A DNA stretch of 48,445 nucleotides. It comes from Punctularia strigosozonata HHB-11173 SS5 (Eukaryota; Basidiomycota; Agaricomycetes; Corticiales; Punctulariaceae). Position 1 is the first letter of the stretch, and every line of letters begins with the position of its first letter. Under the pieces are notes generated by a model. That model was not told the DNA's origin. It saw nothing but the letters and a program-made list of their open reading frames with translations, and searched no databases. Positions 4,786 through 32,592 of this stretch are shown piece by piece. The translations under genes and the position numbers were made by a program. Where the stretch lies: positions 1 through 48,445 of the forward strand of contig NW_006767433.1 of assembly GCF_000264995.1 (NCBI RefSeq), given 5' to 3'.

Positions 4786-7700
4786 ATGGAGCATGAACCG
4801 ATGGACATCAGTGATCCGGAAGCCAACGAACTTGACGAACTCGACGAACTAGTTGACGTTGGCCCTCGTTTCGACCCTGAAAGTATACTCAAGGCAGGCA
4901 AAGCTATGGCTCAGCAGCTCGAGGTCATGACGGAGAGGTGGAATCTGTCGCCTGAACGTGCAACCATTTGGAAGGCGGCTCTGCACAGGTCGGTCGAAGA
5001 CATATCTCGTGAACGAAGGCTGACGCCCTATCTCAGCATTTCTGAATTTACCCTCCCAACGACGTCTATCGCAGTGTATGGGCGTAAGTAACAGCACACC
5101 GCCTTCTAGGTACATATATGACGTGATCCATAGGTACCGGAGATGGAAAAAGCACGCTTCTCAACGCACTAGTTGGCTGTAAGCGAGCGACGTCCGTCGT
5201 GATGTATGTTCCACGGCGCTGATCATACATCGCTCAGTGGACATCTTCCCGTCGTCAGCCACCGGTAAAGGTATGCATGACGTCGCCTGCGGTCTTGTAC
5301 AATCTGAACCGAAGCACTCCGGCAGCCGCTACCGGTGCACCGATCGTTATATCGTACCACGACTCGCCTATGATCTACTGTGACATTCAGTTTCTTGCCG
5401 AAAGCGCATGGAAGGATCAACTCTCGCAGTACCGTACCGATATCCTAGATGGCGTCCCCATCAATGACGACGTCAGGAAACTGACTTGGAACAAGGTGAG
5501 GCGTGATATCTAGCATTCGCCCTCTATCTTACATGATTATTCACACTAGATCAAGGAAATATATCCTGGACTGTCCGATAAGGATATCCTCAAGATGACC
5601 CCCGACGAAAACATCTCGTACGATCCTTGTGCGTGATCAATTTTATCGTCCCTTTCCTACTCTAACAGCTGGCGCTCAGTCTCTAAAGCATTGCTAGGAG
5701 AAAAGGCTCATTTTCAAGGAAGTGCGGATACTATCCGCGAAAAACTGCGAGCCTACGTTGGACATGCCAAGCATGCCGGCTTGGATCAACCAAAAGGCGG
5801 GCTCCTGAAATCCGCAGTATCCTGTTTCTTACCTCCTTTCAGGCTGCGTGTGGCCGCTGATTGTCGATATTGATGTTCGCGCGAAAGTTGAACTACTCAA
5901 ATATGGTTTGTCGATGATCGATTTGCCGGGAACTGGTGATGTCAATGCTGCACGCGAGCAGGTGACCTCTCACTACGGACAGAAAGCCGATGGGTTTCTT
6001 GTTGTGGCTGACATTCAGAGAGCTGTTACTACTTCTGAGCCTTTTCGTACGCATCCGATACCATATCCCAAGGTGCAGCATGATCTCATGCCAGAGACAG
6101 AGCACCTTAAGAACCTTACAAGTTCGTTATACTTCCTGCATACATGTCACCCGCTGTGACCTGACAAGATCTCTCCGCGATTTGTTATTTCCAGTGTGTA
6201 AGTCGACTAAAATCTGATGTGGAATTTGCGTTGATGTATTCGCCACATACCCTAGCTGTTGGGTGCGTATCCCCGACAAGCTGCTTCTTTCTTCCGCATG
6301 CTGGCTGATGTGGAAGTACTAGTCTTGACAAGGTCGTGTTTGTCTGTCAGTTACATTCGTATTCCTTGTCAACTGCGGGCTCAATAATCTTCGTCCATAA
6401 AGGCACAAAAGCGGACATGTGTAGCAACGATACCGATTTGCCTGATCACTCCAAGGAATCGCAATTATGGCTTGAGCTGTCCACCGATCGGGAGAGAATG
6501 GTCTCTCAGCGTGCCCAGAAGCAGGCGGAACTGAATCGTCTCAGCAATGTGGGCAAGGGTCAGCCTGCTTCTTGATTCAATGTTATACACCTCTGACTGA
6601 CATCGACGGACAGAACGCAAAAAATCGGAGGGACTCTCAGAGGCCTTCGAGCAGCTTCAATCAACTGTCAAGGAATTGCAGCGCATCGAGTCATTGTTGG
6701 CAGACAATGACAAGCAGATGAGACGGTTTTGCACTGCAGAACGGTCTAAGGTAAGTAAAGCTCGTATCGACATGCGACTGCTATGTCAACGTGTACCTAG
6801 GACATAGTAATGTCACTGAACGAAAGGATCGCCGAAATTCTTGACAGGAATGAGGCTAGCATTTGCATGCCTCGTAAGCATCCGACCTCACAATCCTCGC
6901 CACATTAGATCCTGATGCCTTAACAGGTGTCTATTGTTGTGCAGCACGTCACTCTATCTTGTCTTGTGCGTGTATATGCACTCTATGCGCACGAATCCTC
7001 ATCCTGGTTTTCGTAGCCGGGACTCATGCACCCAACGTATACAAGGAGATGGATGAAACGGGCATTCCTGCCATACGCCAGTGGTGCCAAAACCTGGGCT
7101 TAGCGGCATGTATCAAGGCCGTCATTGAGTTTATTGAGCAACTTGATATTCTTGTGGTTGATGTCCAGCGGTATCTCGATAATTCGCTTGTAGGGGATGC
7201 CTCATATCGCGCAGCCCTCCAAGAGGAATGGCAAAGCACGTCACATGTGGAAATCATGAACCATATGAAAGCACTTGCAGAGGCCGAGGTGGAAACTCTC
7301 AAGAAACGTTTCAGGCGTTATCTAAACGAATCCTGTACCATAGGCATCGAGAAAGTAAGATATTGATCCGATATGCAACGTTAACTAATGGCTGAAGTGA
7401 CTGAAACCTACAGGCAAGTGACGCTGCGCTCCGCACTGCTGAGGATTTGTGCGACTCAGGATTACACCACAACACCGTAAGAGCAAGTTCGTATCCCTAA
7501 TCCCTCTGTGGCATATAGTTTGTCGCTCACGTGAAACAGCTTTCCGTCATAACGGTGTCTTCCGGGAGAACTGGAACTACAAGCTGCTTATCCCGTTCCA
7601 AGATGCGATCATGCCTCAATGGAACTCTCTTTTCGCCCGACGAATGTTCGATGCACTCGAGGCCAACGTCGCGAAAGGCATCAAGAAGATTATCAAGCAA

Positions 7701-8485
7701 ATGGCGCCTAAGACGAGCCTCACCGCCGGACCTCTGAAGCGCCAGTTCTCAAAGCAAAGAAAGAAGTGCGAGAAGAACGTTCGCAAGTCTATGAACATAG
7801 CATTGCGCCAGTGGGAAAGCGCCTTCCAGAAGGATCGCAAGGATCTCCATAGTTCAATGCACGAATGGATTCAAACACGCCTGGAAGATGTGTATCAGGA
7901 GGCGGCAAGTAAGAAGGGGCCTGGTAGCTCGAAAATCTCGAAGGTCTGGCAGCGGAACTCTTATAGCTATTCTGCCCACTCGCTAATACACTGTCAGATT
8001 CTATTTCGTGATTTCATAGGAGAAAGCAAGCGTGACATTTTCATCGATCTTGGCAAACACGTCTTCAATAGCCTCGATCGTACTGCAGACAAGGTACAAG
8101 CAATCATGACAAGGCGTCTGTGCGCCGTTGCAGATCAGGTAGGTACAAGAATGGTTGTTTTATCCGAACGTTACTTGATAGAGCCGGACAGTGCACGTTG
8201 GATATGGCATTACTGTGGGATAGACCGACGGAAAATATCGACTACACCCAGGACAGGGTGGATTTGGCCGCGATGCGAGAGGAACTGAAAAAATACCATT
8301 CATTGGCAGAAGAGAGGAGATATGATATGCTGATGAACGGGGTGGAAATGGAAGGGGAAGGAGTAATAGCGAAAACGGAGCAGGGAGTGGCGGTGAAAAT
8401 GGAGAAGGGATTGATGTCGAAAACGGAGGAAGTGATAATTGGAACGCCGGAGGAACGAGGATTCATGAAGCAGGAGCATCCGTGA
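4786..8485 (+). CDS. SLIP-GC-like large GTPase (dynamin-like), copy 1
   Basis: Twenty exons give a closed 884-residue model: 4786-5083, 5134-5178, 5238-5270, 5326-5495, 5550-5628, 5680-5796, 5843-6046, 6101-6121, 6195-6197, 6256-6262, 6323-6345, 6403-6558, 6614-6750, 6801-6873, 6927-6965, 7017-7354, 7414-7486, 7540-7943, 7998-8138, 8192-8485. Walker A is GRTGDGKS (99-106), G3 is DLPGTGD and G4 is CTKAD. Coiled-coil-like helices follow, then the family block TVRAT plus HNGVFR. The Lys/Glu-rich tail repeats a K-T/M-E unit three to four times. Such proteins resemble nuclear GTPase SLIP-GC; their function in fungi is not established. Exon lengths 45, 33, 79, 204, 21, 3, 7, 23, 156, 404 and 141 are shared exactly with copy 2. 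The intron at 5797-5842 needs a GC donor; a GT-AG alternative (5757-5817) is also open. The 3-nt and 7-nt exons are discussed in the findings. Confidence 0.8.
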
Positions 8486-19370: not shown

Positions 19371-19588
19371 TGCTGTTCGTGAAGAAAGAAGAAAGAAACA
19401 AGGGCGAAAGGGATGTTCACGGGGATCGTATGTCAACGCGCAAAGCGTAAATGCGGGACGCGACCGGCATCGGCTATATATGTAACCGGTATGTCCGTAC
19501 GCATCGGCCGCACAAAGTTCGTGGCAGCGACTTGTCGTAATTTACATCATTTCTCACTTGTTCTCCGGTCCTCTCAGTCTCCTCAACC
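19371..19588. promoter_or_regulatory. Shared divergent promoter with TATA-like box
   Basis: The 218 bp separate the start codons of the dienoyl-CoA isomerase (-) and MFS transporter 1 (+). A TATATATG box at about 19474-19481 sits roughly 110 bp before the MFS start codon. A pyrimidine-rich stretch follows it up to the ATG, as is common in fungal promoters. Confidence 0.5.
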
Positions 19589-21988
19589 ATGTCTGTGAAC
19601 CCTCTCTCCGACCCTCTTGATCATGCATCTAGTCGCCGTCGCTCATCATTTTCAGCGACGAGTCCTCCTTCCAGTCCCCCACAATCTGCTAGCTTGAAAA
19701 AAGTCTTCGGCTCCACTGATCCATTTGATCTCTCCGCCGGGCCAGGAAGCGAACAGCGCCGTTTGGATGTCTTGCAGTCCTGGGACACACTTTCTGCAAC
19801 GGGTTCCCTTGTATTAGAGCACGACTTAGGCACTACATCTGTATTAGAAGAAGCGAGGGCGGGAGGAGACGTTGCTTCCAAGCACTCGGGATCGGTGTAT
19901 GATGTATCAAGAGTCAATGCGCCGTCAACGCGGGTGGATCCTTCAGCCGTGCTCGAGGTGGTGGAGGATATTTCGCCGGAGATGCGCGCGAAGATACGTC
20001 GTCAAGGTCGGGTGCACTTCGTGGTGCTTTGCTGGGTGCTCTTCCTCAATGGCTGGAACGACGGCTCGGCTGGCCCGCTCATCCCGACAATTCAACGCGT
20101 ATATCATGTAGGTCATCATTCACGATCCCTTCATCCACCTCTGGTTCCCCCCGTGTCTCTTACTCCTTGCGTTGCTGGCTCGCTCATACGTATGAGTAGG
20201 TCGACTTCGCGATCGTGTCTCTAATCTTCGTGTGCAACTGCGTGGTATGCGTTTCTGGCATGCACGGACTGAAGCAAAGATTGATCGAATTACCTCACAG
20301 GGATTCATTGCAGGCGCGCTTGCGAACGTTTGGCTCGCGGACAGAGTTGGATTTGGGAAGGTTAGCCTCTCCGCTAACACCTAGTGCTCTGGTGTACTAA
20401 AGCGTAACGCAAGGCTATGTTCCTCGGTACGCACATCACGACAGCGGACATGGCATGCATCTGAGATCACGCCAGGCGCCTCCTCCACGACCATTGCCTA
20501 CGCCATTCAAGCTCCTGCGCCGTCATTTCCGGTTCTCGCCGCAGCATACGTCATATCAGGATTTGGCCTCTCCATCCTTGTATGTTCTCCCTGACATGGT
20601 CTTTTGGGTTTCGTAAATCATTCACGGACAGCAACCAGAACGCGAGCGCGAATGGATTCGTAGGAAGCCTTAAAGAACACGTTTCTACGAAACTATCTTT
20701 CATCCATGCGTCTTACGGTACGTGAAAATACCATAACCCCTTTCATCGGGCTTCTCACATGTAGGTCAGGTATCGGCGCCTTCGCAGCGCCCCTTGCGGC
20801 AACCCACTTCGCCTCGCAACGACGATGGAGCTTCCACTTCCTCGTATCGCTCGGCATCTCTGTCATCGCGCTCACGCTCGTCGGGGTCGTGTATAGGTTC
20901 AGAACCCTCACTCGTACGTCTTCTAACCCAAAATTCCGATCTGTCTAACGTACATGGCAGAACTTCTGCGTGAATCTGGGCACGCCGAATCCGCCGAAGG
21001 AAACTCGTCGGATAGCAAGTACTCCCAAATTTTCCGCATCAAGCTCGTGCATCTCCTTGCTCTATTCGCCCTCGTCTATGTTGGGACAGAGGTGACACTA
21101 GGCGGCTGGATTGTAACGTTTATCATCGAAAAGCGTGGGGGAGGGCCAAGTGCTGGATATGTCAGCTCCGGATTCTTCGGTGTAGGCATTCTGGTCTCCG
21201 CTCGAACGGACAAGCAGCTGATGCTCACCTTCAGGGTCTGGCACTCGGAAGGGTGCTACTGATCGGCGTGAATCGTCTGGTATGTGCTGGGAACATGGAG
21301 GAGGTTGCGCCCTCTAACGGCAACAGGTTGGCCCGCGCCGTGCGCTGATGATCTACGTGACATTGTCCATCGCGTGCGTGTATTCATCTAACACGGCAAG
21401 CTTCGCTGCATCGCATCGCTGACTACTGGTGTAGGCTCCAGATCACTGTTTGGCGCGTACCGTCGCTCGTCGAGAACGCGGTAGCCGTGTCGGTCATCGG
21501 CTTGCTCTTTGGACCAATGTATCCCATGCACGTCTTCTGTTCCACTCCGTCATTTTGCACGCTAACGTCCGCTTCGTAGCTTGATGAACCACGCCAGTCG
21601 GGTGATGCCGAAGTCAGCTACTCACCTCCCGGCATCGTGCATGAACCATGACTGAAATGACGGCATCTTAGATGGCTACTCACAGGCTCCTTGGGTTGGA
21701 TCGGCGGCGTTGGAAACAGTGCGTTCTATTTCTTCATTACATTGTTCCCCGCACATAAGAGTGCTCATGTACGGACGATGACGCAGCTGGCTCGGCCGTG
21801 TTGCCCTTCATAACCGGTATCCTTGCTGCACGATTCGGAATTAATTCACTGCAGCCCTTGTAGGTCTTGCTACTGCGCTTTCCGTTCGCGCATGTGCACT
21901 AATGATATTTCGCAGCCTCGTAGCGATGATGATACTTTTGTTTTGCGTCTGGGCGGCGGTGCCCAAGAGCCCGCGCCGACCCGAGTGA
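19589..21988 (+). CDS. MFS transporter, copy 1
   Basis: Fifteen exons give 531 residues: 19589-20107, 20200-20244, 20301-20360, 20414-20426, 20476-20579, 20639-20717, 20770-20913, 20961-21181, 21235-21279, 21327-21373, 21435-21527, 21580-21612, 21672-21718, 21787-21859, 21916-21988. A polar 135-residue N-terminus leads into the first helix (NGWNDGSAGPLIP). The A-motif-like ADRVGFGK loop and a second half starting LVHLLALFALVYVG are present, and the protein ends PKSPRRPE. It resembles fungal BSC6/FucP-type major facilitators; the substrate is unknown. Copy 2 at 29467-31880 keeps nearly all intron positions and the same last residues. The intron at 21528-21579 begins GCACGT where copy 2 has GTACGT, so it is either a GC-AG intron or a weakened donor. 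Copy 1 has one extra intron (20914-20960). Confidence 0.92.
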
Positions 21989-25660: not shown

Positions 25661-28600
25661 ATGGCGACACCGGACACCGATATGGACGTCGATATAACAC
25701 CATCGTTAGAACCTGGGAAGGTTATCACAACAGGACAGGAACATCTTCGACGGTTAGGCGATATTGTCAAGTTATGGAACGTCTCCATCGACCGTCGAAC
25801 ATCCTGGAAAACCGATCGGGGCAGGTCAGACACTCAAAACCAGAAAGTACGGCTAGCATTACTGACACACGTCATCTAGACTCTACAAGTACAAGCTCCC
25901 AACGTTGACCATTGGTGTCCACGGTAGTGAGTCTCTAGCGGATTGTCCCTACGCAAATTCGTATTAATCCTCTGAAGCGACGGGCTCAGGAAAGAGCACG
26001 CTGATCAACAACCTCCTTGACTGTTAGCGCCCCTGAGTTGCTTACTTTGGAAGACTGTTGATTTCTATACATTATACAGGTGACATCCTTCCGACTGGAG
26101 CATCTGGCGAAGGTGAGAGAGCACCCGACTCCCTCGTGCGCCGTTTCCTGATTATTTGACTTATGATATAAACGTAGCTGTCACCAGTGTTCCGATCTTC
26201 ATATCGTACCACGACGATATCGATGCTCGTTGCGTTATCGAATTCGTGGATTTGAAAACCTGGAAGACCGAGATCGCGAGGTTCTTGGATGATTGTACAG
26301 ACACTGACGGTGTTCGTGACGTCGAAAGAAGCATCAAACAAAGCGAAGATAATGCGATCAAGTCAGTTTGGGACAAGGTAGCTGCTATGGATCGTTTTCG
26401 TTACCGCTAAACACCTCATCCATCTTATCCAGATTGCGTCCATTTATCCAGGTCTGTCAGCAAGGAAAATGAACAACATGACACCAGAAAACGTGCTAGA
26501 GTATGATCCAGGTTTATACATTGACTTCAGAATATCGAATACCTCTAATCCTGAATTTTGCAGCATGTACTTCGTTACTCGGTACCGAAGAAGTGATACG
26601 AGGAACCACAGGAAATGTAGCCAATCAACTACGCTCATATGTCACGCAGATGAGGCCACATTCCGGGAGTAGGCTCACAGGCGAGTAGATCGTGTTTTTG
26701 CCTCATCTGTAATTGACACATGCCTAGGTCATCTGTGGCCTATAGTTCGCCATGCGACCCTCCATTTAAAGGTCGACTTCCTCGAGACAGGGATACGCCT
26801 CATCGATCTTCCGGGAACAGGTGACGCAAACACAGCTCGAGAACGTGTTGCGCTCGACTATCAAGATAAAGCCGATGCCTTTTTCATCGTCTCACCTATC
26901 ACAAGGGCCAAGGATGACGGACCGACACTCGGTATATGTGGATCATTGTTAGGTATTCGCAAACTCATATGATACTACAGATATGGTGAAGTCTTTGTCA
27001 AGTAGGTTTCAAGTCACCCGTTATTACTAACTTACGCTCATCTCTTCACAATTAGTGGGTGAGTTCCTTCTCACCAATAAGTATGTCTGCTTCTCACAGC
27101 TTGTTTTATTACACCAGCTGTTGGGTAGGATGAGACTACGTATTGAATGCACTGCAGCTGATTGTGTGTTATTAGCGTGGACAAGCTTACAATTATATGT
27201 CAATGATACCCATTACACCTTTGTAATTTTTGCTCATCGTTGTGACACCAGGTACACATTCGGATTCAAATCCTGAAACTGTCTTGCGGGACTTTCAACC
27301 GGAGGAGTCCGTGGAATGGGATATGTTGTCTCACCGTCGCGAGGCATATATGAACAAGTTGAAGGAATGCAAAGATAAACTCTGCAAGCTGAAGCTTGGG
27401 TGCGAGGGTATGCTAACATGAAACGTGCTAAGGTGTATCAGGCTGAGAGCTCACTACTTGAATCTTAGGCCACGTCTCAGCCCAGACCTCTCGATTAGAG
27501 AAAGAAGTCGGCAATTGGAGCGCGTACCTCGCGGATGTAGACAAGGCCAGACTCCGTATCTGTATGGAAGCTCGCGGAAAGGTTTGCACTTCACTCGATG
27601 TTATGCTACATTGTACCCATCACATACTATGCGGTTCACCTGGTTAGTTTGTGAAGAAAGGGTTGCGAAATAGACTTTCCACGATCTTGGGAGATATAGG
27701 CAAGTTGATCAATCAGTTGTGCGTTCATAACTGGAAATTGACCTCGCCTACAGATAGCAGACAATTGAAGGTGTTTACCTGCGCTTCAAAGTGTCATAGT
27801 GATGTCTCAGGTATGCCATTGTATGAGCGATAACAAACACGAGATATCTTACATTGCGAAAGGTGGCGATTTTGGTTATTCCAGTCCCGATACCACCCCG
27901 GATTCCGGTATCTGCGAGCTGCGTGCTTGCTGGAAGGCGTTATCATTGAGAATGCGCAACGACGCTCTCAAAAGCTTTATTGTCCCGTTTTCCATCCATG
28001 TCAATGATTGCATTGACTTTCTTGACCACACGTTAAGCAGTGGTCGGCTGGAAAGGAAGTCCCTCGGGACTGAGTGGGAGAATAAGGTAAAGCCTGAACT
28101 GAAGCGGGCGCTCAGATCCTTGGTCAAGAATGAACAGAAAGCTCTGAAGCGAGTTTTCGATGACTCGGGTATACTCGTTGCCTGTGTCAAGGGTATTTTC
28201 GAGGTGAATCACTTACCTGTCTTCGGCGAAGATTCCCATCGATTAATCAATGCAGGGAGTTGGGAACTGTTCAATTGTTGTGGATGCATTGTATAGGAAG
28301 GCGTGGTCAACCGTACGAGCAAGTGAGCCTTCTTGTCTTCAGAACCGATGGATGGTTAATCTTCGCATCTAAATAGCATTGCGCCGCCACGGTATATTCC
28401 ACGGGGAGAATCTAAACTACAGCTTCCTTGTTCCCTTCCGGGACGAAATGATTCGGGAATGGAATCGCATGTTTGGCCAAGCGTTGCTCTCTGATGTTGC
28501 AGAAGACGTTGTCAAGTTGCTCTCGGAGGCTCTGGACACGCTTGCTTCCAGGAAAATAACGAGCCCCACTCTACAAAGACAATTCGATGTTCAGCGCCGT

Positions 28601-29466: not shown

Positions 29467-31880
29467 TTACTCAGGTCGGCGCGGGCTCTTGGGCACCATG
29501 GCCCAGATGCATAGCAGGACAACCATCATAGCGACCACACTGTCGTCTCGCGTTAGCACAAGGGCAGCACAAAAACATCAGGAGAAGGAGGGGAAAGGAC
29601 ATACAAAGGCTGCAAAGCGCCGATACCGAATCGCGCGGCGAGGATGCCGGTGATGAACGGTAGAACGGCGGATCCAGCTGGAGTGTGCATGTAATTAGTG
29701 TCAGAGTCGCTCGTATGATGGGGAGCCTGCGTACCAGTCCCGACGCCGGCGATCCAGCCCAGCGAGCCTGTGAGCAGCCACCTACACCCAAGCGTCGTCA
29801 GCTTCAATCATGAGAAGGAGATAGAAGAAGACGTACTTGGGCATGATACGACTTGCTTGGTTTACGAGACTACGATCGTTGGTCAGTTGGTATATCAGGG
29901 GAAAAAATGGAAGATAATACGTACATAGGGTACATCGGACCAAACAGCAGGCCGATGATCGAAACCGCAACCGCGTTCTCGATGAGCGAGGGTACACGCC
30001 ATATAGTGATCTCAAGCCTGATCGTTGGTAGACAGAGTAAGGCGACAATCCTTTGAAGGAGTAAAGACGTCGACGTACGCGATGGAGAGGGTGACGTAGA
30101 TGAAAACTACGCGGCGCTCGCCGACCTACACCGTCCGGTCAGGAACACAACCACCGCCGCCACTGGATGGCAATCACATACCAAACGATTGACACCGATC
30201 AGTAGCACCCGACCGAGCGCCAAGCCCTACGCAACCTCAATCAGTGACCTCTTCGTCATCCCAGTTCTCCAGGAATCGACCTACCCCGAAGAACCCGGAA
30301 CTGACGTATCCCGCACTCGGGCCTCCGCCGCGCCGGTCGTTGAGGAAAGACACGATCCACCCGCCAAGCGTGACCTCCGTGCCGACGTAGATGAGCGCGA
30401 AGAGCGCGAGCAGATGCAGCACCTTGATCCGGAAGATCTGCGAGTAGGTCCCGTCGGTCGAGGTGCCTTCGGTCACCTCGTGGCCCGTTTCGCGTAAGAG
30501 CTCTGTTCGAGCGTCAGATACAGGGGGAGGAGATGCCGCAGAGGCGAAGGAGGCGGACGCACGGTTAAGGGTCTTGAAGCGGTACACGGTCACAACGAGC
30601 GCGAATGCGAGAACGGCGATGCCCAATGAGATGAGATAGTGGAAACTCCACCTCTGTTGGGACGAAAAGTGTGTCGCAGCGAGCGGGGCCGCGAAGGCAC
30701 CGATACCTGTCCATAATCGTGAGAAATACGGGTCAAAAGACGAGGAGAGGGCTGGGATGTACCGTACGACGAGTGAATGAGACATAACTTGGTGGAGACG
30801 TGCGCTTTGAGGCTGCCGACATATCCATTGGCGCTCGCATTCTTTGGACCGCGTTTAAGTCAATAAGACGAAAGTGAGGGAGCTGTAGGGAAGGAACGTA
30901 CGAGGATAGAGAAACCGAAGCCGGAGAAGACGCATGCAGCCGCGAATAGCGGGAAAGGCGGCGCCGCTGCTTGAATGCAGTATGCGATCACGGGAGAGAG
31001 CGCGGCTGACGCGGGGTCAGATTGGAGCCCTGTATACAGCGTATGATGATGTTCGTGGCATACCTATGAACATGGCCTGAACAAGAAAGGTCAGCATGAA
31101 CCGTACGGCGCGAGCGAAGCACACGCACCTTGCCGAGACCAAGCCTATCAGCAAGCCAGACGTTCGCCAACGCTCCTCCAACATAGCCCTGGAGAACTTG
31201 TTCGTAAGGGTTCGATCTAAAGACGTTAGGTTGCTCGCGAATCGTACCACGCAGTTGCAGACAAAAATGAGGGACACGATCATAAAGTCAACCTAATTTC
31301 ATCGAATGAGTACGATCATAAGACGAGACTGTGAGGAAGGCAAACATACGTGATATACCTGCTGGATCCTCGGAATCAACGGCCCCGTCGAGCCGTCGTT
31401 CCAGCCGTTTTGGAACATCACCAAGCACATTACCGCGAAGTGCATCCACTCCCGACGTCGCATCTTTTTGCGCAACGCCGACGAAAGCGGCTCGTCCACC
31501 TCGAACCTGAGCGAGGGCACGCCCGGCGTCGAGATCCCACCGACGCTGGAACGGATCGTCTTGCTATCGACATCTTCGTCCACCTCCTCCACCTCCTCCT
31601 CCAGCTCGAACTTAGCGTCGATGTCGCGTTCCTGCAAGCGGGAACCGGCCTCGAGGGCGAGGGTGTCGCGGGATCGGAGAGCTTCGGAGCGGCGTCGGAC
31701 GCGGTCGACGCCGGCCGTGAGGTGCGGCGAGAACACGGGGAGGTCGAAGGAGTCGGTAGATCCGAGAGCGTCCTTCAGGCTACCAGGGTGTGGGCGAGTC
31801 GAGGGGCCCGACGCGGCGAACGAAGGTCGGTGGCGGATGTGCGCATTTTCGAGAGGGGGATCGTGGTGGTCGGAGGACAT
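29467..31880 (-). CDS. MFS transporter, copy 2
   Basis: Resolved exons: 31880-31350, 31292-31248, 31188-31129, 31076-31064, 31005-30902, 30841-30763, 30706-30285, 30226-30182. The remaining six exons down to 29467 follow the copy 1 pattern, for about 554 residues. A 140-residue polar, acidic N-terminus precedes NGWNDGSTGPLIP. The ADRLGLGK loop, LLALFALIYVGTEVTLGGW and the terminal PKSPRRPE are shared with copy 1. It is a major facilitator of the same BSC6/FucP-like group, substrate unknown. Relative to copy 1 it lacks one intron and carries about 18 extra residues (ASPPP region) at that place in the central loop. All splice donors seen are GT. The two copies face each other from opposite strands about 7.5 kb apart. 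Confidence 0.92.
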
Positions 31881-32592
31881 GGCTGGAGAAATCGAGAGAG
31901 GGGTGAGATGAGATGAGATGAGTCGAGGAGATAAAATGTGAATGAACACGAACCCTATTACGCATCTTTCATATCATATGGAAGGGCTGGAATGCGCTGG
32001 ATACGTCAATTGAACGCATCATGTCTTGGTGGATCCTGGATAAGCTGTTCGTCCGGGCGACGTGGTAGGTGGTGGTGCGGCGACATCGTGAGCGTTGATC
32101 GGCGTCACTCATGAAGACGGTTTATTGTAGATGCGTTTGAGATGCGTCAAAGCAGCTGAGATTTTGTGCAAGGCGACCGGTTGCCCACAGACACGATGAA
32201 AGCCGAGGAGGGAGAAGCCCTGAGCCGAACACCCGAGGACCGCACCGCAGAACCGGACCGGTGCCGCCACGCGTTCGAGCCAGCTGGTCGACCCTCTGCA
32301 CGAACCTGCTCAGCCTGTAGTTCAAGGTCGCGGAAATCGTATACTGTCGTCAACTCAAACGCTTTCTCATGAGTTGCATGCTTATTCAGGTGACGATGGC
32401 ACACTACGTTCGCATTGAACATCGATCTATGCACCGTCACCGGTTTCCGCGATAGCACGCCGAAAGCCAAAGCACGACAAGTCAGACGTCACATGATCGA
32501 AGCATCTAGGACCATAGACCAAGTGTAGACATTCCTTGGGTAAGTGTAAATATCCCTGTCATAAACGTACAGCTGCTGTAATTTTGCGCGTC
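31881..32592. other. Intergenic, no gene seen
   Basis: Holds the MFS copy 2 promoter and the 3' side of the four-helix membrane-protein gene. A short GAGAT repeat (31908-31920) lies just upstream of the MFS start codon. The open frames present are short and unassignable. Confidence 0.4.

Follow-up and report, generated by a model that had tools for sequence, protein, structure and literature searches.

A predicted 3-nt exon within a run of micro-exons in paralogous dynamin-like GTPase genes of Punctularia strigosozonata

Introduction

Can three nucleotides form an exon by themselves and, if they can, are they kept when the transcript is spliced? The question is raised by a gene for a large dynamin-like GTPase of the basidiomycete Punctularia strigosozonata, in which the segment between the G3 and G4 motifs appears to be broken into four exons of 21, 3, 7 and 23 nt. 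This arrangement was put forward in an original prediction, and we examined it together with its counterparts elsewhere in the genome. The window, by which we mean the whole stretch of DNA analyzed, is 48,445 nt long and forms the start of contig C1 (NW_006767433.1) of a genome of 33.57 Mb in 32 contigs. The original prediction was right to place an exon of 3 nt among the shortest possible, although animals are known to have 3-nt exons and Arabidopsis to have 1-nt exons (PMC4674806, PMC7392893), the latter occurring in Fusarium as well (PMC12940212). The structure is rare but already known; the interest of the present case is its conservation in three paralogues and the run of four micro-exons to which it belongs.

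Results

The exon chain in copies 1 and 2

Two paralogous GTPase genes, copy 1 and copy 2, lie in the window, and a third, C20, is described below. The features of the two genes are as follows.

4786..7908, + strand, copy 1 gene for a large dynamin-like GTPase, 18 modelled exons without stops; the model ends at 7908, and C-terminal exons beyond it are left out
6101..6121, + strand, copy 1 21-nt exon, CAG before and GTTCGT after, phase 1 on both sides, equal in length in copy 2 and C20
6122..6194, + strand, copy 1 intron 2 (73 nt), with CTGAC whose A is 30 nt from the intron end
6195..6197, + strand, copy 1 3-nt exon TGT, CAG before and GTAAGT after, phase 1 on both sides, acceptor score 3.7, donor score 4.2
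6198..6255, + strand, copy 1 intron 3 (58 nt), donor GTAAGT
6256..6262, + strand, copy 1 7-nt exon CTGTTGG, TAG before and GTGCGT after, identical in copy 2
6323..6345, + strand, copy 1 23-nt exon, TAG before and GTCAGT after, leading into the G4 motif exon and restoring VVFVCTKAD together with 6403-6558
26187..27810, + strand, modelled part of copy 2, the paralogous GTPase gene, 11 exons with an open frame; 26187 is an anchor within an exon and does not mark its border
26981..27001, + strand, copy 2 21-nt exon
27002..27055, + strand, copy 2 intron 2 (54 nt), with CTAAC whose A is 25 nt from the intron end
27056..27058, + strand, copy 2 3-nt exon TGG, TTAG before and GTGAGT after, acceptor score 1.8, donor score 5.0
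27118..27124, + strand, copy 2 7-nt exon CTGTTGG
27176..27198, + strand, copy 2 23-nt exon

The ATG of copy 1 is at 4786, and in the spliced model the frame stays open across all 18 exons. Introns 1 to 5, which surround the four micro-exons, are 54, 73, 58, 60 and 57 nt long in copy 1 and 49, 54, 59, 51 and 53 nt in copy 2; in copy 1 the run thus distributes 54 coding nt over 356 nt with five introns. GT and AG signals were present at all borders of the chain in both genes, the frame was open in both, and the coordinates, exon lengths and intron lengths that had been predicted were all correct. The prediction also held in that the four exon lengths recur in copy 2, that the CTGTTGG exon is identical in the two genes while the introns have diverged, and that the 3-nt exon, with phase-1 introns on both sides, is frame-neutral and adds one residue. 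The two chain peptides, EPF-QHLKNLTMSVGLDKVVFVCTKAD for copy 1 and TL-DMVKSLSMAVGVDKLTIICTHSD for copy 2, aligned without gaps, and equality of exon length extended beyond the stretch (79, 117, 204, 21, 3, 7, 23 and 156 nt in both genes). Judged by splice-site scores and phase, the 3-nt exon has the borders of a micro-exon, a class of internal exons no longer than about 30 nt, each bounded by 3′ and 5′ splice sites.

Several other features of these genes and their surroundings were observed. Copy 1 has further small exons at 5134-5178 (45 nt, P-loop), 5238-5270 (33 nt) and 6927-6965 (39 nt, after the GTPase domain). For a homologous intron, at 5797-5842 in copy 1 and 26681-26727 in copy 2, the best reading uses a GC donor (GCGGGC, 46 nt, and GCGAGT, 47 nt, respectively); C20 has GTACGT at this place. 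Copy 2 is flanked by two similar open reading frames in opposite directions, 19541-20224 (+ strand) and 31299-31973 (− strand), both with a serine-rich start and with F(L/Q)NGWNDGS(A/T)GPLIP near the end, which resemble the N-termini of transporters and may have arisen by local duplication.

The protein family

GTPases of the dynamin superfamily are characterized by the motifs G1 GxxxxGK[ST], G3 DxxG and G4 [TN]KxD. Copy 1 matched all three with GRTGDGKS, DLPG and TKAD, and it gave 64.8 bits with the Dynamin_N profile (PF00350, cut-off 27), which places it in the dynamin superfamily. With the partial models of the other two genes Dynamin_N scored 27.8 bits for C20 and 22.1 bits, below the cut-off of 27, for copy 2. 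The motifs DLPG and TKTD of C20 also matched, the modelled part of this gene excluding G1. In copy 2 DLPG matched, and the G4 position (27252-27265) reads THSD, without the lysine, instead of TKxD, a change that may alter its nucleotide binding. A possible likeness to SLIP-GC drew no support from the URGCP_GTPase profile (PF25683), whose score of 12.4 bits, far below the cut-off of 55, gives no assignment to the URGCP or SLIP-GC-like group.

Protein searches of the genome with copy 1, copy 2, C20 and C24 as queries returned the same four genes each time, so that the family has at least four members; a Dynamin_N profile search of the genome gave other dynamin-like matches besides. No relatives were confirmed among 109 and 40 pattern matches in the viral and prokaryote collections, respectively. 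Contig C20 carries the third paralogue (locus L017), whose exons measure 79, 105, 213, 21, 3, 33 and 153 nt. Its 21-nt exon is at 2443-2463, its 3-nt exon, TCG, at 2526-2528, and a single 33-nt exon at 2577-2609 replaces the split into 7 and 23 nt; introns 2 and 3 are 62 and 48 nt long, and the peptide is AH-RLFKSLLLEGRMRDNIAFVCTKTD. Introns 2, 3 and 5 are thus common to copy 1, copy 2 and C20, and intron 4 to two genes. The fourth and divergent paralogue, C24, when read by eye, has only the first intron of the stretch and none of introns 2 to 5. The 3-nt exon therefore occurs in three of the four family members found in the genome and is conserved between homologous genes.

Alternative chains

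The original prediction had described the chain of copy 1 as the only in-phase reading that restores VVFVCTKAD, and this proved wrong. When chains were enumerated with permissive splice-site thresholds, copy 1 yielded 353 that were in frame and free of stops, copy 2 yielded 223 and C20 yielded 22. We then compared the encoded peptides between genes, scoring for copies 1 and 2 the 22,964 pairs (of 78,719 possible) that differed in length by at most 8 residues. The proposed pair was the best, with a score of 57, and the pair without the 3-nt exon scored 56. Among 2,199 pairs of copy 1 with C20, the top score of 34 paired the C20 chain with a chain of copy 1 that lacks the 3-nt exon; among 2,139 pairs of copy 2 with C20 neither proposed chain was in the top 8 (scores 51 to 43). 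Peptide agreement with C20 was therefore not decisive as proof of the chain, the proposed chains not being the top pairs there. The same was true of splice-signal ranking by itself: a rough ranking placed the proposed chain 52nd in copy 1, where 60 chains were kept, 12th in copy 2 and 1st in C20, and so first in only one of three genes. The proposed chain is singled out by the agreement of copies 1 and 2, not by frame.

In copy 1, the lengths of introns 1 (6047-6100, 54 nt) and 5 (6346-6402, 57 nt) are divisible by three and neither intron contains an in-frame stop; their retention would therefore keep the frame, and chains that read through them score too. Retention of intron 5 would insert 19 residues into the G4 motif.

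Splice signals and chance

The 3-nt exon has the form YAG-NNN-GTRAGT, in the same phase, in all three paralogues that have introns 2 and 3, with the donors GTAAGT in copy 1 and GTGAGT in both copy 2 and C20. Because AG-NNN-GT alone is common, we chose a test of site quality. The interval from the donor of the 21-nt exon to the next acceptor was shuffled 20,000 times per gene with dinucleotides kept and at least 40 nt required on both sides. A 3-nt site pair as good as that observed arose with P values of 0.001 in copy 1, 0.0006 in copy 2 and 0.00035 in C20, values that are slightly favourable, the thresholds being the observed values themselves, and whose multiplication would assume independence. 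CTRAC is present in intron 2 of all three genes, its A preceding the intron end by 30 nt in copy 1, 25 nt in copy 2 and 24 nt in C20; shuffling gave P values of 0.056, 0.075 and 0.066, respectively. The homologous introns, by comparison, were no more alike than shuffled sequences (z from −0.7 to 1.9 in 13 comparisons) and are saturated. Descent with little change cannot, then, account for the conserved site, which was retained while its surroundings changed. Since the site pair recurs in three paralogues with saturated introns and with a CTRAC branch-like site upstream, the tiny exons are most readily accounted for as genuine and inherited from a common ancestral gene.

In 240.7 kb of the genome, searched on both strands, YAG-N3-GTRAGT occurred at five sites, three of which were these exons. 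When CTRAY was required 6 to 33 nt upstream, three sites remained, and all three exons have this spacing. No excess of 3-nt spacing over the 240.7 kb was found, the count of 5 at a spacing of 3 comparing with 2 to 11 at the other spacings from 0 to 30; the signal is confined to the GTPase family and is not genome-wide. Another site of this form, CAG TCC GTGAGT at L021:8563 (− strand), has CTRAY within 40 nt upstream and could be a second 3-nt exon.

Our splice matrices were rough, having been built from 99 ab initio candidates and 14 family introns counted twice. With them, the intron 3 donor of copy 1 was not the strongest of the chain (4.2 versus 4.8 for intron 4). A path model scored the form with the 3-nt exon above an otherwise equal skipped form in copy 1 (−6.59 versus −9.27) and in C20 (−10.87 versus −13.47); for copy 2 the equal skipped form was absent among the best 12 chains.

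Inclusion or skipping of the 3-nt exon

Skipping of the 3-nt exon would need introns of 134 nt in copy 1, 116 nt in copy 2 and 113 nt in C20, whereas elsewhere in these genes we modelled 20 introns, which range from 46 to 66 nt. Inclusion gives introns 2 and 3 of 73 and 58 nt, 54 and 59 nt, and 62 and 48 nt, respectively. The evidence at the DNA level thus favours inclusion. The protein comparison does not: distant dynamins appear slightly to prefer the skipped form. Dynamin_N gave 67.3, 22.7 and 28.1 bits to the skipped forms of copy 1, copy 2 and C20 and 64.8, 22.1 and 27.8 bits to the included forms, an advantage of 2.5, 0.6 and 0.3 bits. Profiles of the three paralogues scored 43.8 skipped and 38.8 included against the bacterial dynamin-like protein 5owv, whose structure is solved; when C24 was added the scores were 47.9 and 38.1, with alignments that differ elsewhere too. 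As these dynamin relatives are distant and the loop is variable in length, we read the result as meaning that the residue is probably not required by the fold, and this would leave room for the optional use of the exon. C24 was tried as an intronless length marker but did not settle inclusion, having 28 residues from intron 1 to the Thr-Lys of the G4 motif as compared with 21 in copy 1, 21 in copy 2 and 22 in C20.

Taking these results together, we infer that the 3-nt exon is normally retained in the mRNA, as part of a chain of genuine micro-exons whose flanking introns are removed stepwise, and we give this reading a probability of roughly 0.63. The exon might instead be a regulated cassette, both forms being made and the loop before the G4 strand being toggled by one residue. 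Its frame neutrality between phase-1 introns would suit such a role, as would the finding that, against distant dynamins, the skipped protein scores no worse than the included one, but skipping demands introns of 113-134 nt in genes where 20 others span 46-66 nt, and no mark of regulation was noticed by eye in the sequence. Exon skipping is a minor splicing mode in fungi, which we also counted against a regulated cassette. On the other side, a 3-bp exon with a GTAAGT donor is described as alternatively made in Drosophila hth (PMC7392893), and overall we regard regulated use as unlikely but by no means negligible. In its strongest version, which we consider quite improbable, the cassette would be ancient and predate the duplication, and the spliceosome would toggle the length of the GTPase by one residue beside G4; the skipped form would then have the length of other dynamins, the included form would be a lineage-specific variant, and a codon-sized exon would tune nucleotide binding.

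The remaining explanations deny the three nucleotides a place in the mRNA. If a single intron of 113-134 nt separated the 21-nt and 7-nt exons, AG-NNN-GT would be a coincidence or a decoy. Frame and peptide are good without the 3 nt (56 versus 57), the best pair of copy 1 with C20 lacks the exon in copy 1, and the scores with distant homologues are slightly higher; these points are opposed by a high-quality site pair whose phase agrees in three genes despite the saturation of their introns, and by the branch-like site before each 3-nt exon, and we give the single intron little credence. Nor do we find it credible, except at very long odds, that the site is an intermediate of the stepwise removal of one intron, recursive or like that of the stwintrons known in fungi, with the three nucleotides finally lost. 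Two introns only 3 nt apart would invite this view, but each comes with a full donor and acceptor of its own, and nothing was seen that would afterwards excise 3 nt in frame. With both introns complete and AG separated from GT by 3 nt in each of the three genes, the site is neither a stwintron nor a zero-length recursive site.

Discussion

Retention of the 3-nt exon would have to be reconciled with the size of the splicing machinery. The footprints of U1 and of the 3′ splice-site factors should be too large for both to be seated on 3 nt. We propose that the short introns are each recognized as a unit by intron definition, in which case exon length would be no barrier. The exon would offer too little room for the 3′ splice-site factors of intron 2 and the U1 snRNP of intron 3 together, and since simultaneous occupancy would be impossible the flanking introns would be removed sequentially. 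Intron 3 would most likely go first, by way of its GTRAGT donor, so that the three nucleotides would open an enlarged exon of 10 nt (36 nt in C20), and removal of intron 2 would then splice the 21-nt exon to it. The 3-nt exon would thereby complete two codons, A|TG T|CT in copy 1, A|TG G|CT in copy 2 and C|TC G|AG in C20, and add one residue, predicted to precede the strand bearing the G4 motif. It has been proposed that short introns are by default recognized through intron definition, and the steric clash over tiny exons is described as a classic problem (PMC8378409). The order with intron 3 first is suggested by the GTRAGT donors, by the dependence of the 3-bp micro-exon 8 of Drosophila homothorax (hth) on its GTRAGT donor for its production (PMC7392893), and by the tendency of plant micro-exons, whose introns are reported to be removed sequentially, to lose the downstream intron first in most cases (PMC8831610).

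These systems resemble the present one to different degrees. The hth micro-exon shares with it the length of 3 nt, the CAG before and the GTRAGT donor after, but, as described, it arises when an alternative donor inside a 48-bp exon is used, and no larger exon is evident here. Plants have conserved exons of 1 to 15 nt, including the 1-nt exon of APC11 (PMC8831610, PMC4674806), which like ours may be adjacent and whose introns are removed sequentially, as we propose for these genes; the plant cases have much wider sampling and RNA support, whereas the present case is argued from sequence. In Fusarium CYP621A a single-nucleotide exon lies in an apparent intron of 139 nt, compared with a median of 56 (PMC12940212). 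This too is a fungal nuclear coding micro-exon flanked by two short introns, recognized from frame, from AG and GT borders that homologues share and from an over-long intron; it is 1 nt long, obligatory for the frame and confirmed by reads, whereas ours is 3 nt long, frame-neutral and predicted from DNA. Among basidiomycetes, the P450 genes of Phanerochaete chrysosporium similarly have frequent small exons and introns of 45-55 bp, the shortest exon reported being 6 bp (PMC1184071), as against 3 nt here. Exons of 3 bp are cited in fungal mitogenomes, and a 1-nt mitochondrial exon has been described (PMC12308204); these are exons of organelle genes, and the 1-nt exon is flanked by group II rather than spliceosomal introns. 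A "3-bp exon" of Ganoderma gpd was set aside, being by the published description part of a longer exon 2 that follows a 6-bp exon 1 (PMC8379801). No 3-nt exon in a fungal nuclear gene was found in the literature searched, a scope outside which most subscription journals fall, and we claim no first.

If confirmed by RNA, these genes would provide a 3-nt exon in a basidiomycete, set within a run of four micro-exons and kept in three divergent paralogues. They would then offer a compact natural test of how intron definition handles exons whose two borders lie too close to be recognized at once, and of which intron is removed first; they would also illustrate how automated annotation might drop or misplace the strand that leads into G4.
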